Assembly (NCBI GenBank): GCA_020726285.1
Contig: DYSW01000010.1
Location: forward strand, 1 to 49,775
Source: Melioribacter roseus
GTDB taxonomy: Bacteria; Bacteroidota; Ignavibacteria; Ignavibacteriales; Melioribacteraceae
Direction of reading: 5' to 3'
Length of the DNA: 49,775 nucleotides
In this document: positions 5,798-9,568 of the stretch, in pieces
Layout of the letters: every line of letters begins with the position of its first letter
Position numbering within the stretch: position 1 is the stretch's first letter
Program-made: the position numbers and the translations under genes
Notes under the pieces: model-generated
What the model was told of the DNA's origin: nothing
Database searches by the model: none
What the model saw: only the letters and a program-made list of their open reading frames with translations

Positions 5798-7791
5798 TGA
5801 AAGACATTTCAATTATAATTGTTAATTATAATGTAAAAGAGTTTGTATTAAACTTAATTTCATCTATTGAAAAATCTTCAAAAAACCTTGCGGTTGAAGT
5901 AATTATTGTTGATAATGCTTCGAGCGATGGAAGTGTCGAACTAATTCGGAATAGATTCCCTAATGTAAAATTAATAGCAAATTCAGAAAATATTGGTTTT
6001 GGAAAAGCGAATAATCAGGGAATTGAAATTGCAAAAGGAAAATTCATACTTTTCCTGAATCCAGATACAGTTCTGAAAGAAGATACACTTCATAAAATGG
6101 TAGATTTTCTTAATTCCAATCACAAAATTGGAATGGCAACTTGCAAAGTGCTAAATCCAGATGGAACATTACAACTTGCATGCCGAAGAAGTTATCCAAC
6201 TCCTTGGGTTTCGTTTTCAAAAATTGTTGGTTTAAGTAAAATCTTTCCAAAATCAAAAATATTTGCTCAATATAATCTCACTTATCTTCCAGAAAATGAT
6301 ACTTACGAAGTTGACGCAATTTCGGGTTCATTTATGTTCTTAAAGAGAGAAATTTTGGATAAAGTAAATGGTTTTGATTCAGATTTTTTTATGTATGGCG
6401 AAGATTTGGATTTGTGTTACCGAGTTCGTGAAAATGGCTACAAGATTTTTTACTTTCACGAAACAGAAATAATTCATTATAAAGGCGAAAGTACAAAAAG
6501 AAGCAATATTGATGAAACACGAGTTTTTTATAACGCAATGTCACTTTTTGTTGAAAAGCATTTTTCATCATCATTTTTAGTGAAAATTATTCTTAAAGTC
6601 GCAATTCAGATTAAAGAATTCATGGCATTTTTCTCAAAAAACAGAACAGCAATTTTACCTGCTTTACTCGATTTCCTTCTATTTGCTTTGATGCTTTTTA
6701 TTGCCGAAAATTATTACAAAAAGAACACAACTTGGGTTGGTTTTCCAAATGAAATAAAACCTTGGATTTTTCTAATTCCAGCGTTTTTGCAAGTAATTCT
6801 ATCTTTTTTTGTTGGCGTTTATAAATCAACAAGTTTAAGTGTTAGTAGAACAATTCTCGCACTTTTTATCGGATTAATCTTAATTTCGTCCTCAACTTTC
6901 TTTCTAAAACAATATGCATTTAGCAGAGCAGTAGTATTAATTACATATTCGCTAACGTTTTTAGTTTACGCAGTTTACCGAATTATACTTAAAATCTTCT
7001 TTCATGTCGGGAATAAAAGTCATTTTTCTAGAAAAAGGACATTGTTGGTTGGCTCAAAAAATGAATTGTCAATCTTCATTGATAAATTGAAGAAAAATTA
7101 TCTTTTTAAAGATGAAGTGATTGGTTTGATTTCAAAAAATATGGACGAAGTAGGAAAAGTGATTTTTGACAAAACCATTTTAGGAACTTTTGAAAACATA
7201 AATAAAGTAATGCAAATTCACAAAACTGAAAAAGTAATTTTTCTCTCGAAAGAAATTGATTTCACTCAGATTTTCAATGTGGTTGGTTCGGCGAAAAGTA
7301 GAGAAATTGAATTTATGATTGCTGGCGACGAACTTGATTATCTTGTTGGTAAATCGGCAGTTACAATTCTTGATGAAATATCTTTCCATAAATTGAATTA
7401 CAATATTTCGCAAGATTATCACCAAATTACAAAACGCATATTAGATATAACAATTTCCTTACCAATTATGGTTTTAATTTTCCCTTTTGTATTTTTGAAG
7501 AAAAATTTTGGTTCACAAGGAATTTTTTCGGAAATAATCATGGAAATACCATCCGTTTTTTTTGGAAAGAAAACATTTATTGGTCCAAGAAAACAAGATT
7601 TAACAGAAGAATTGTATCTTGGTAAAATAGGACTTTTTGGACTTTGGTTCACAGAAAATGTACATCAAGAAGATTCTGAGGAAATTAATAAACTGAATTT
7701 ATTTTATGCAAAAAATCAAAATATTTGGTTGGATTTAGATATTCTTGGTAAGTCAGTTTTGAAAATATTTTATGGAGAAAATAATGGCTAA
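5797..7791 (+). CDS. fusion: GT2 rhamnosyltransferase-like domain plus membrane segments plus degenerate sugar-transferase domain
   Basis: A 664-aa composite protein. Residues 1 to about 280 form a GT2 domain of the WbbL type: [34 protein letters not shown], the DxD-equivalent FLNPDTV and the late [10 protein letters not shown] motif. Four hydrophobic segments follow (about 287-410). Next is a Rossmann-like block ([13 protein letters not shown], about 415-455). The C-terminal stretch starts at [11 protein letters not shown] and aligns by eye with the sugar-transferase domain of the protein at 3678-5084. However, the QERVG-KFRSM segment and the catalytic Asp-Glu (DEIPQ) are absent, leaving only FIGPRKQDL and a GLFGLWF remnant of GLTGW. 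The C-terminal half therefore looks like a non-catalytic copy of the initiating transferase, perhaps a scaffold. Its start shares one base with the upstream stop, and its end overlaps accA by eight bases. Confidence 0.85.
7774..7780 (+). promoter_or_regulatory. ribosome binding site deciding the accA start
   Basis: GGAGAAA lies four bases before the ATG at 7784. The earlier in-frame ATG at 7772 overlaps this element and has no such site, so 7784 is preferred. Confidence 0.65.
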
Positions 7792-8734
7792 AACAATTTT
7801 GGATTTTGAAAAACCCATCATAGAAATAGAAAATAAGATAGAAGAAATGCGACAATATCAAGAAAATTTAGATATTGACGACGAAGTTGCAAGTCTTGAA
7901 ATGAAAGTAGAAGATTTAAAACGCTCAATTTATCAGAATTTAACAAGATGGCAACGCGTACAACTTGCGCGTCATCCCGAACGACCATACACGCTCGATT
8001 ATCTCGCAATGATGACAGAAGATTTTGTGGAATTGCACGGAGATAGACTTTATAGAGATGACAAAGCGATTATTGGTGGTTTTGCAAAACTTAACGACCA
8101 AAAAGTTATGATTATCGGACATCAGAAAGGAAGAGATACAAAATCAAATCTCTATCGAAATTTTGGAATGCCAAATCCAGAAGGTTACAGAAAAGCCTTG
8201 CGACTAATGAAGTTAGCCGAAAAATTCAATGTTCCAATTGTAACTTTGGTTGATACTCCTGGTGCTTTCCCTGGTTTAGAAGCAGAAGAAAATGGACAAG
8301 CTGAAGCAATCGCTCGTAATTTGTTTGAAATGTCGCAATTAACTGTCCCTGTAATTGTAGTAATTATTGGAGAAGGTGCAAGTGGCGGAGCTTTGGGAAT
8401 TGGAGTTGGCGATAGAATTCTTATGCTCGAAAATACTTGGTATTCTGTAATTAGTCCAGAATCTTGTTCAAGTATTCTTTGGCGAAGTTGGGAATTTAAA
8501 GAACAAGCCGCCGAAGCACTAAAACTTACTCCAAATGATCTTCTTTCGCAAGGAATAATTGATAGAATTGTTGAAGAACCGCTTGGTGGAGCTCATAAAA
8601 ATCCAAAATCAATGGCAAACACACTAAAAAATGTGCTACTTGAAGAAATTACTGAATTAAAAAAACTTCCAAAAAATAAACTTGTAAATAAACGTCTTGA
8701 AAAATTTAGCGAAATGGGTGTTTTTGTTGAATAA
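7784..8734 (+). CDS. accA: acetyl-CoA carboxylase carboxyltransferase subunit alpha
   Basis: Alpha subunit of the carboxyltransferase that moves carboxyl from biotin-BCCP to acetyl-CoA, giving malonyl-CoA for fatty-acid synthesis in the cytoplasm. It works with AccD, which is not in this window. The product is 316 aa from the ATG at 7784. A frame four codons longer starts at 7772, but that codon sits on the ribosome-binding site. AccA marks are LDFEKPI at the N-terminus, [13 protein letters not shown], the [30 protein letters not shown] region (abridged), [15 protein letters not shown], and [15 protein letters not shown] lining the CoA/oxyanion site. The start overlaps the preceding glycosyltransferase by eight bases (ATGGCTAA). 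That couples a lipid-synthesis gene to a glycan operon. Confidence 0.97.
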
Positions 8735-8736
8735 CC

Positions 8737-8759
8737 TTAGAGTTTAGAGTTTAGAATTT
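8737..8759 (+). repeat. left heptamer array (TTAGAGT x2, TTAGAAT)
   Basis: Three 7-base units in tandem, TTAGAGT, TTAGAGT and TTAGAAT, end two bases before the ATG of the four-helix-bundle gene. The last twelve bases (8748-8759, AGTTTAGAATTT) recur exactly inverted at 9123-9134 on the other side of that gene. Confidence 0.7.
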
Positions 8760-8761
8760 GT

Positions 8762-9118
8762 ATGAGAAGTATTGTTAGAGATAAAAGTTCTCGTTTTGCT
8801 CTTAGAATAATTAAATTATATAAATATCTTTATGATATTAAATCTGAAAAAGTGCTTTCTAAACAATTGTTGCGTTCTGGAACCTCAATTGGAGCGAATG
8901 TTGAAGAAGCACTCTCGTCTCAAATTGATAAGGATTTTATCTATAAGTTATCAATTTCGTATAAAGGATCAAAAGAAACACATTATAGGCTTCGTTTGTT
9001 GAAAGATTTAAGTTTTATTAATGCAAATGAATTTGAATCAATAATTTCTGAATGCGAAGAAAATCAAAAAATTTTATCATCTATTCTTATTACAATGAAA
9101 AAGAAAAACAAAATTTAA
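8762..9118 (+). CDS. four helix bundle protein (23S rRNA-intervening-sequence / S23 family)
   Basis: A small 118-aa protein of the four-helix-bundle family (TIGR02436/PF05635). The family includes proteins encoded inside intervening sequences of some bacterial 23S rRNA genes and the Avd accessory protein of diversity-generating retroelements. Diagnostic stretches are the N-terminal SSRFALRIIKLYKYL, then LLRSGTSIGANVEEA near residue 42, and SYKGSKETHYRLRLL near residue 65. The C-terminus is lysine-rich. Many standalone members are known, with no settled function, and nothing next to this one resembles a reverse transcriptase or rRNA. It lies between accA and a thioesterase and is bracketed by inverted heptamer arrays, which suggests insertion as a unit. 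Codon use looks similar to its surroundings. Confidence 0.9.
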   Translation: MRSIVRDKSSRFALRIIKLYKYLYDIKSEKVLSKQLLRSGTSIGANVEEALSSQIDKDFIYKLSISYKGSKETHYRLRLLKDLSFINANEFESIISECEENQKILSSILITMKKKNKI

Positions 9119-9134
9119 TTCTAAATTCTAAACT
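9118..9134 (-). repeat. right heptamer array (ATTCTAA x2), inverted copy of the left array
   Basis: Two ATTCTAA heptamers (9118-9124, 9125-9131) followed by a degenerate third unit. They are the reverse complement of TTAGAAT. The 12-base AAATTCTAAACT at 9123-9134 is the exact inverted match of 8748-8759. The array begins on the last base of the four-helix-bundle stop codon. Confidence 0.7.
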
Positions 9135-9142
9135 ATAAAAAA

Positions 9143-9568
9143 ATGATAAAAACAAGATTTAAAATTCGAGTTCGCTACGCCGACACAGATAAAATGCAAT
9201 TTGTTTATAACGGCAAATATTTAGAATATTTTGAAGTCGGAAGAACGGAACTATTGCGCTCATTAGGATTACCTTATTCCGAAGTAGAAAAGCGAGGTTA
9301 CCAACTTCCACTTGTCGAAGCAAATGTTAAATATAAATCGGCTGCATTTTACGATGATATACTTATAATTGAATCAAGTTATCAGATTGAATCAACACCA
9401 ATTATCCAAATAAATTATACTATCTACAGAAAAGAAACTTTGGAAGTAATCGCTGAAGGTTTTACGAAACATCTTTTTATAAAAGAAGAAACAAAGAAGG
9501 CTGTTAGACCGCCAGAATTTTACATACAAGCAATCAAAAACGCAGAAGAAAATGCTCGAGAAAATTAA
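9143..9568 (+). CDS. YbgC/FcbB-type acyl-CoA thioesterase (hot-dog fold)
   Basis: A single hot-dog domain (141 aa), predicted to hydrolyse acyl-CoA thioesters in the cytoplasm. The catalytic N-terminal motif is readable as RVRYADTDKMQFVYNGKYLEYFEVGR. The Asp in YADTD is the expected catalytic residue, and the motif's usual VVYHANY is FVYNGKY here, so the His is replaced. The remainder (PLVEANVKYKSAAFYDD, INYTIYRKE) matches the strand pattern of the family. It starts nine bases after the heptamer array and overlaps the next gene by 17 bases. Its closeness to accA fits a fatty-acyl role, but substrate length is unknown. Confidence 0.88.
   Translation: MIKTRFKIRVRYADTDKMQFVYNGKYLEYFEVGRTELLRSLGLPYSEVEKRGYQLPLVEANVKYKSAAFYDDILIIESSYQIESTPIIQINYTIYRKETLEVIAEGFTKHLFIKEETKKAVRPPEFYIQAIKNAEENAREN

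Follow-up and report, generated by a model that had tools for sequence, protein, structure and literature searches.

The closest described counterpart of the locus reported here is the intervening sequence (IVS) of the Coxiella burnetii 23S rRNA, which holds an open reading frame (ORF) for a protein of the same family within a 28-bp terminal inverted stem, has tandem GACAGAT heptamers directly upstream of the S23p start and was termed a selfish element (PMC4990558). The original prediction for our locus likewise stated that the protein family occurs in 23S rRNA intervening sequences. The accessible part of that paper makes no mention of two-sided heptamer arrays or of a wider cassette family. 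Intergenic tandem heptamers have been described as GGGGATT in cyanobacteria (Nostoc) and GGGAATC in Xanthomonas (PMC4692102), and as TAACTGA in Beggiatoaceae, where horizontal transfer was suspected and 'no mechanism is evident' (PMC4679880). The main text of the latter, as far as accessible, contains neither 's23' nor 'four helix', and 'four helix' is likewise absent from the accessible part of the former.

Our locus shares with the IVS an ORF inside terminal inverted repeats and heptamers upstream of it. However, the IVS lies in a helix of the 23S rRNA and is excised by RNase III, whereas the cassette described below lies between two protein genes of an operon, accA and a thioesterase gene. 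Its arrays resemble the GGGGATT, GGGAATC and TAACTGA repeats, which in the accessible parts of the reports are also intergenic, near ORF starts and phylogenetically scattered; there the repeats are treated as arrays alone, whereas here they form the mirrored ends of a gene cassette. Judged by title and abstract, none of the open-access papers listed in our searches joins S23/IVS and intergenic heptamers, and the subscription literature may hold one. Ribosomal IVS and intergenic heptamers are known separately, and the Coxiella IVS, as far as the accessible part of PMC4990558 describes it, represents the array-S23-array design within rRNA. Such heptamer repeats are also called STRR.

Three further systems offer points of comparison. 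In REP/RAYT systems and REPINs, a gene likewise lies between short inverted repeats, and there are noncoding derivatives with the same ends. However, the end sequence of the S23 cassette is lineage-private and tandem with a period of 7, and while RAYT is a Tyr/HUH transposase, we know of no catalytic domain in S23. Homing introns, inteins and homing endonuclease genes, like the S23 cassette, are polymorphically present at fixed sites. At two sites the S23 cassette also appears younger than the sequence on either side, which is suggestive of homing-like transfer, but it contains no endonuclease. Finally, Avd of diversity-generating retroelements is a pentameric four-helix-bundle protein that partners a reverse transcriptase, and its likeness to S23 may provide a lead for the mechanism.

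The cassette between accA and a thioesterase gene

The window, a 49,775-nt stretch of Melioribacter roseus DNA, carries an S23/IVP four-helix-bundle gene on the plus strand (8762-9118) that encodes 118 aa. The predicted protein matched both family profiles over essentially their whole length (PF05635, E 9e-23, 80.9 bits, profile positions 4-105 of 106; TIGR02436 four helix bundle, E 2e-25, 89.1 bits, positions 2-108 of 109), and it matched the solved structure PDB 2rld (E 1.6e-25). Upstream of the gene lies a plus-strand array (8737-8757) of TTAGAGT (8737-8743), TTAGAGT (8744-8750) and TTAGAAT (8751-8757), and at its end an inverted array on the minus strand (9118-9138) of ATTCTAA (9118-9124), ATTCTAA (9125-9131) and a degenerate third unit, ACTATAA (9132-9138). 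None of 2000 dinucleotide-preserving shuffles equalled the period-7 (lag-7) score of either flank, and 1 of 2000 reached the score of 34 for the inverted match between the flanks. In a repeat search the cassette (8737-9138, unstranded) was delimited by arms of 22 nt that are 91% complementary (8737-8758 and 9117-9138). There is also an exact 12-nt inverted match, AGTTTAGAATTT at 8748-8759, which is the reverse complement of 9123-9134. The inverted arrays around a four-helix-bundle gene and the 12-bp match had both been predicted, and sequence, shuffles and profiles show them to be real; the units had been listed correctly, but the right array incompletely, its third unit having been missed.

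The cassette is fitted tightly between its neighbours. The stop codon of accA (7772-8734, plus strand; PF03255, E 2e-151; TIGR00513) lies 2 nt before the left array, and the right array ends 4 nt before the start codon of a YbgC/FadM-type acyl-CoA thioesterase gene (9143-9568, plus strand; TIGR00051, E 6e-24), so that the S23 gene occupies a stop/start junction in the direction of the host operon. On either strand of the interval between accA and the thioesterase gene, no ORF of at least 60 aa is listed besides S23, which has no other family match. In the profile search of this only ORF, the cassette revealed no transposase, recombinase or nuclease domain, and a Y1/HUH transposase gene of the REP/RAYT type is absent between the repeats.

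The junction was then compared among relatives. A search for accA in 58 genomes, the window's included, gave some match in each, and the best 30 loci were compared. The thioesterase gene followed accA in 29 of these 30, again including the window's, and S23 lay between them in the window genome only. The relatives compared do not have S23 at this junction, and the proposed check for empty sites came out positive. In two congeners (G003 and G004) the junction is a plain spacer of about 40 nt. In the closest congener (G001, accA 95% identical), the junction instead holds a GxxExxY gene (L037 2464-2883) that matches TIGR04256 and the PD-(D/E)XK family and has inverted repeats of its own, built on CGCAAAG; a fourth congener (G002, 77% complete assembly) has no full accA match and therefore stood outside the comparison. 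Occupied and empty versions of the window junction are established at the gene level, and none of the relatives compared provided an empty partner of the window copy at base level. The comparison indicates that the junction is old, that the cassettes are recent and that the same spot was used by two unrelated cassettes. The junction also takes inserts other than S23 and GxxExxY cassettes: judged from sequence, a methyltransferase-like ORF lies there in G005 (L045 2460-3317) and a HicB-like ORF in G078 (L064 2451-2964), neither with such arrays by eye. One of the congeners with a plain spacer has three S23 matches inside 4 kb of a single contig (G004:C15 568-4240).

Within the window genome, TTTAGARTTTAGAR has three matches, namely both window arrays and one place on contig C66. 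The last is a solitary TTTAGAATTTAGAA on the minus strand (L005 1501-1514), far from S23 matches and possibly there by chance. PF05635 has one further match, on C54, so that the genome has a single intact copy. This second match (L002, C54:12229-15411) is partial (1501-1683) with one in-frame stop; its neighbours are nucleotide-sugar dehydrogenase-like by eye, and words resembling TTTGTAATCTTCTGAAGG flank it on both sides. The only match to PF13366 (GxxExxY) lies at C121:24500-24850. Since no second S23 gene of the genome carries TTAGARW, the suggestion that this word might be a genome-wide signature was rejected.

GxxExxY cassettes resemble S23 cassettes in part. At 28 recorded GxxExxY loci, the inverted match between a locus's own flanks averaged 29.2, as against 18.6 with foreign flanks, and reached at least 28 in 16. 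Their arrays consist of CACAGAG-like units without a fixed period. The mirrored design is less clear here than in S23, because the direct-orientation self-match was on average as high as the inverted one (mean 31.0; 8 of 28 at 28 or more). Furthermore, the GxxExxY protein, by its match to PD-(D/E)XK, is a putative nuclease, whereas the S23 cassette has no nuclease domain.

Arrays and protein across S23 loci

PF05635 was found in 90 of 97 genomes, with a maximum of 31 matches per genome, and PF13366 in 78, the window's genome being among both. When one genome was scanned for each species, at least 583 S23 places were confirmed, and the best 80 of these span many phyla (Chloroflexota, Poribacteria, Bacteroidota, Acidobacteriota, Planctomycetota, Patescibacteria, Cyanobacteria, Pseudomonadota and others). 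A first set of loci was drawn from the high-scoring end of PF05635 matches (30 and 80 places) plus genome G019, which gave 132 full-length records, 123 of them distinct and 120 with usable flanks. A second set, with named contigs, comprised 80 records from 77 of the best 80 loci; counts over 200 loci combine the two. The array threshold was 8.8 in the 200-locus count and 7.5 in the control comparison of the 80 records.

A period-7 array was present on at least one side in 146 of the 200 S23 loci and on both sides in 72, leaving 54 with none at this threshold; most arrays (120 of 218) were 4 to 5 units long. In the 120 loci, lag-7 identity was 0.64 upstream and 0.62 downstream, compared to 0.46 and 0.44 in shuffled flanks, with an excess at lag 14 too. 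Control ORFs from the same contigs were rarely built this way: one-sided or two-sided arrays occurred in 63 of 80 S23 records and two-sided ones in 38, as opposed to 17 and 2 of 97 controls. An inverted score of at least 28 was likewise reached by 43 of the 80 S23 records and by one control, whereas in direct orientation the counts were 7 and 1. In one Pseudanabaena plasmid (L207), very long AAAAGCT-type arrays (about 1270-1500 and 1860-2000) lie around an S23 gene located between cas6 and cas4, with more arrays upstream.

We also asked how far the two arms of a cassette belong to each other. Inverted matches of the upstream flank with its own downstream flank averaged 30.3, compared to 16.9 (sd 3.9) with those of other loci; the own flank ranked first in 35 of 120 loci and within the top 5% in 81 (8 and 19 in direct orientation), and 44 exceeded the 99th percentile of foreign pairs (11 in direct orientation). 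Among 14 S23 records adjacent to nuoD, own arms matched at 30.1 and foreign ones at 20.8, the own arm being the best in 4. Arm pairing is private to the locus only in part.

The heptamers themselves are diverse, 111 of 146 being distinct after rotation. Read upstream of the gene and along its coding strand, they nevertheless have a loose core in common, AG followed by a non-G, with T preferred at position 6; AG was found in 115. Aligned by EM, the 146 heptamers scored 421.6, compared to at most 363 for letter-shuffled and 369 for strand-randomised sets (20 each). The excess over the strand-randomised sets shows the orientation of the arrays to be tied to that of the gene. With 45 heptamers the score (151.6) stayed below the null maximum (153.4) and was not significant.

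The word goes with the protein. For 45 loci with arrays on both sides, flanking genes were compared over at most 600 nt on each side. Where the proteins were at least 60% identical and no flank gene was detected in common, the mean heptamer distance was 1.81 (43 pairs, 22 loci), whereas distances between less similar proteins without a shared flank gene were 2.98-3.18, and none of 2000 permutations gave a value as low as 1.81. With a shared flank gene, the distances were 1.86, 2.32 and 3.00. For these relatives the comparison shows array and gene to have been inherited together between sites that appear unrelated. Judged by dN/dS ratios of 0.04-0.23 in seven of nine compared pairs (the other two gave no value), the S23 protein is shown to be under purifying selection in relatives. 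Genome G019, which has 31 S23 matches, contains 12 intact copies with usable flanks, at a median identity of 28% and a maximum of 59%; such mutually distant copies represent different lineages in that genome, and amplification of one lineage within it is not indicated.

Insertion sites and noncoding derivatives in plasmids

Among 72,556 plasmid records, searched with one query each, 37 matched S23 and 8 matched GxxExxY, and on these low counts plasmids were rejected as the main vehicle. Five sites in cyanobacterial plasmids were found both occupied and empty at the level of single bases, the unit being array-gene-array each time. At site (a), on conjugative plasmids with a backbone about 97% identical, the cassette is present in three (two of Trichormus variabilis, one of Scytonema) and missing from six, four of which were checked at the sequence level, as was a remnant in Nostoc C052. 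The empty site reads AAAAAGTAATTAACAAAT and the occupied one AAAAAGTAAT-cassette-GTAATTAACAAAT, with a possible 5-bp duplication, GTAAT. Site (b) is occupied in two plasmids of Calothrix brevissima and empty, after an integrase gene, in three compared relatives. Site (c) is occupied in Aulosira laxa plasmid 2 and empty in three compared homologues; there the S23 insertion made no target duplication and replaced about 6 nt. The cassettes of sites (a) and (c) are 84% identical across array-gene-array and lie beside different genes. At site (d), in two plasmids of Nostoc ATCC 53789, a TCAGGAG cassette precedes a small gene in one and a GGGGAAA cassette follows it in the other, and neither plasmid has the other's cassette; the TCAGGAG cassette is present in three plasmids and missing from six, five of the six by annotation only. 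At site (e), after a TraM-like gene, two occupied versions were compared with two empty ones, both from a single strain; the difference includes the replacement of about 40 nt of spacer. Another plasmid case may show a TTCTA duplication that has lost one base, and a search for empty partners of plasmid loci L206 and L212 found none.

Furthermore, noncoding elements of about 180-210 nt carry TCAGAAT/TCAGGAG arrays around a noncoding core (L222 2921-3126; L344; L230). Matches to the element occur in 43 plasmid records and cover at least 80% of the query in 27; they lie mostly where no feature is annotated, and the L222 copy had no match in Rfam. In Nostoc N6, a 182-nt noncoding copy sits inside the S23 gene of the site (d) TCAGGAG cassette without target duplication, the flanks being identical over 45 nt on each side, and a noncoding copy in Aulosira plasmid 2 occupies a place that is vacant in plasmid 1, any repeat at its edges being no longer than AT. 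In these relatives, comparison of occupied with empty sites shows the unit to be present or absent as a block and noncoding elements with the same arrays to insert as well. The arrays would thus appear to suffice in cis for insertion, S23 being supplied in trans.

Copies at the same site were also compared with their surroundings. Between Nostoc C052 and N. edaphicum, the S23 gene differs at 1 of 363 positions and the cassette at 3 of 480, while the flanks differ at 31 of 600 (right) and 99 of 600 (left; Fisher p 1e-5 and 2.5e-23). Between Nostoc ATCC 53789 and N6, the cassette differs at 8 of 456 positions and the flanks at 43 of 500 and 46 of 596 (p 1.8e-6 and 7e-6). In a pair of Calothrix plasmids, cassette and left flank are identical and the right flank differs at 46 of 600, the differences starting at the cassette edge, and a Trichormus-Scytonema pair showed no contrast between cassette and flanks. 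Of the four pairs, two thus have a cassette younger than either flank, on plasmid backbones that are mosaic. Nearly identical cassettes within flanks that diverge by 5-17% are suggestive of homing-like transfer, and are rated no higher because general recombination among mosaic plasmids could also produce this pattern.

A probable mobile cassette and rival readings

In our preferred reading (probability about 0.8), the locus in the window represents a small mobile cassette made up of the left array, the S23 gene and the inverted right array. Mobility of the array-gene-array unit as such is highly probable. The original prediction of a cassette that moves as a unit holds at base level in cyanobacterial plasmids only, and movement of the window copy would follow by analogy. 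The expectation that other family copies have heptamer arrays at their ends was borne out by the counts over the 200 loci, except that the heptamers differ. Lineage-private heptamers, an analogous GxxExxY cassette at the same junction and noncoding derivatives go beyond what had been predicted.

The cassette would presumably be expressed by read-through from the host operon. We lean towards the view that S23 recognises the heptamer arrays. An X. campestris relative forms a homopentameric ring of four-helix bundles, according to the accessible part of PMC4990558, and each of the solved relatives, 2gsc and 2rld, contains five chains. A ring-forming S23 protein may bind its own arrays, with their period of 7 and loose AG core, at one 7-nt unit per pentamer subunit, which would agree with arrays of 4-5 units; it may recognise them as DNA, or as an RNA or single-stranded DNA stem formed by both arrays. 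S23 may further bridge the arrays and offer the cassette to a putative host enzyme, which would copy it into cassette-free homologous sites in a homing-like manner and rarely into new ones. That spread is mainly homing-like is, however, a tentative proposal that falls somewhat short of an even chance.

The rival that survives best places the element at the RNA level: the arrays would pair in the transcript, RNase III would excise the cassette from the operon mRNA, insertion would be nearly harmless, S23 would bind the stem and the cassette would spread by ordinary recombination. We regard this as possible, at around one chance in three. Neighbour direction was clear in 173 of 185 S23 loci (at least 450 nt on both sides, longest ORF), and both neighbours were co-directional with S23 in 154, mixed in 19 and both opposite in none, as expected of an element removed from mRNA, although selection for S23 expression could also give this bias and two plasmid cassettes beyond this set are antisense to both neighbours. 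Of the co-directional loci, 94 have an upstream array, and in 81 of these it runs into the end of the preceding ORF or begins within 10 nt of it. RNA duplexes between a locus's own arrays were on average more stable than those with other loci's arrays (-48.6 and -35.9 kcal/mol), but fell below the first percentile of foreign duplexes in only 13 of 120 loci. RNase III does cut the Coxiella 23S IVS within such a stem, as far as the accessible part of PMC4990558 describes it; excision from mRNA, however, leaves the insertion of noncoding derivatives at new places unaccounted for.

A host-type regulatory module, with S23 as regulator, the arrays as operators and presence or absence due to recombinational gain and loss, is unlikely. 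It would suit the strong purifying selection on S23 and the arrays that abut start codons, and post-transcriptional regulation was proposed for the TAACTGA heptamers (accessible part of PMC4679880). However, cassettes adjoin genes as unrelated as accA, nuoC-nuoD, plasmid transfer genes, nrdA-nrdB and cas6-cas4, relatives go without the cassette at the same junction, and an S23 gene is interrupted by a noncoding element that carries the same arrays. Of 30 nuoC-nuoD loci, 15 have spacers of at most 39 nt and one has no adjacent nuoC. Cassette-sized gaps occur in 8, each with an S23 match that in two cases has in-frame stops; in the other 6 the spacer is of intermediate length and, in at least two, holds remnants of S23 or arrays by eye.

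Classical transposition, in which the arrays would be terminal repeats served in trans by the transposase of a host insertion sequence, is equally improbable. The MITE-like derivatives, the single case of a possible GTAAT duplication in flanks 97% identical and the possible TTCTA duplication minus one base would fit it. A constant target-site duplication, suspected from GTAAT, did not hold up in view both of insertions without any, namely that of the 182-nt derivative and one S23 insertion that replaced a few bases, and of flanking direct words, which at 59 loci were in no excess over pairing with other loci; classical transposition is thereby left unsupported, and the ends, mostly different in sequence, also speak against it. 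Finally, an artefact in which polymerase slippage made the 7-nt repeats and template switching mirrored the flanks around an incidental gene is very unlikely: simple repeats of bacteria do show an excess of heptamers (accessible part of PMC4692102) and both processes would help array homogeneity, but two-sided arrays mark S23 records and hardly any control ORFs, their orientation to the gene is non-random, and the heptamer tracks the protein even without a shared flank gene.

The mobile-cassette reading may extend further. We consider it a tentative possibility, a little under even, that S23 and GxxExxY genes with mirrored arrays represent a class of transposase-free minimal mobile elements found in many phyla. 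In such a class, a small self-assembling protein would read its own tandem word, which in S23 arrays has 7 nt and comes in about 4-5 units, nearly as many as a pentamer has subunits, and host repair or reverse transcription would copy the cassette into operon junctions. The heptamer repeats of cyanobacteria, Beggiatoaceae and Xanthomonas, like the rRNA IVS, would then represent ends, remnants or special landings of these elements. Co-evolution of ends and protein would explain why each lineage has a word of its own and why copies of one lineage do not accumulate in a genome.

We know of no established function for the S23/IVP family. The pairs of occupied and empty plasmids make mobility experimentally testable, and they raise the question of how a helical bundle of 120 residues without a known catalytic domain would move DNA. 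If the array-gene-array unit is mobile, this would bear at once on the role of S23/IVP, on the origin of intergenic heptamers and on the rRNA IVS.
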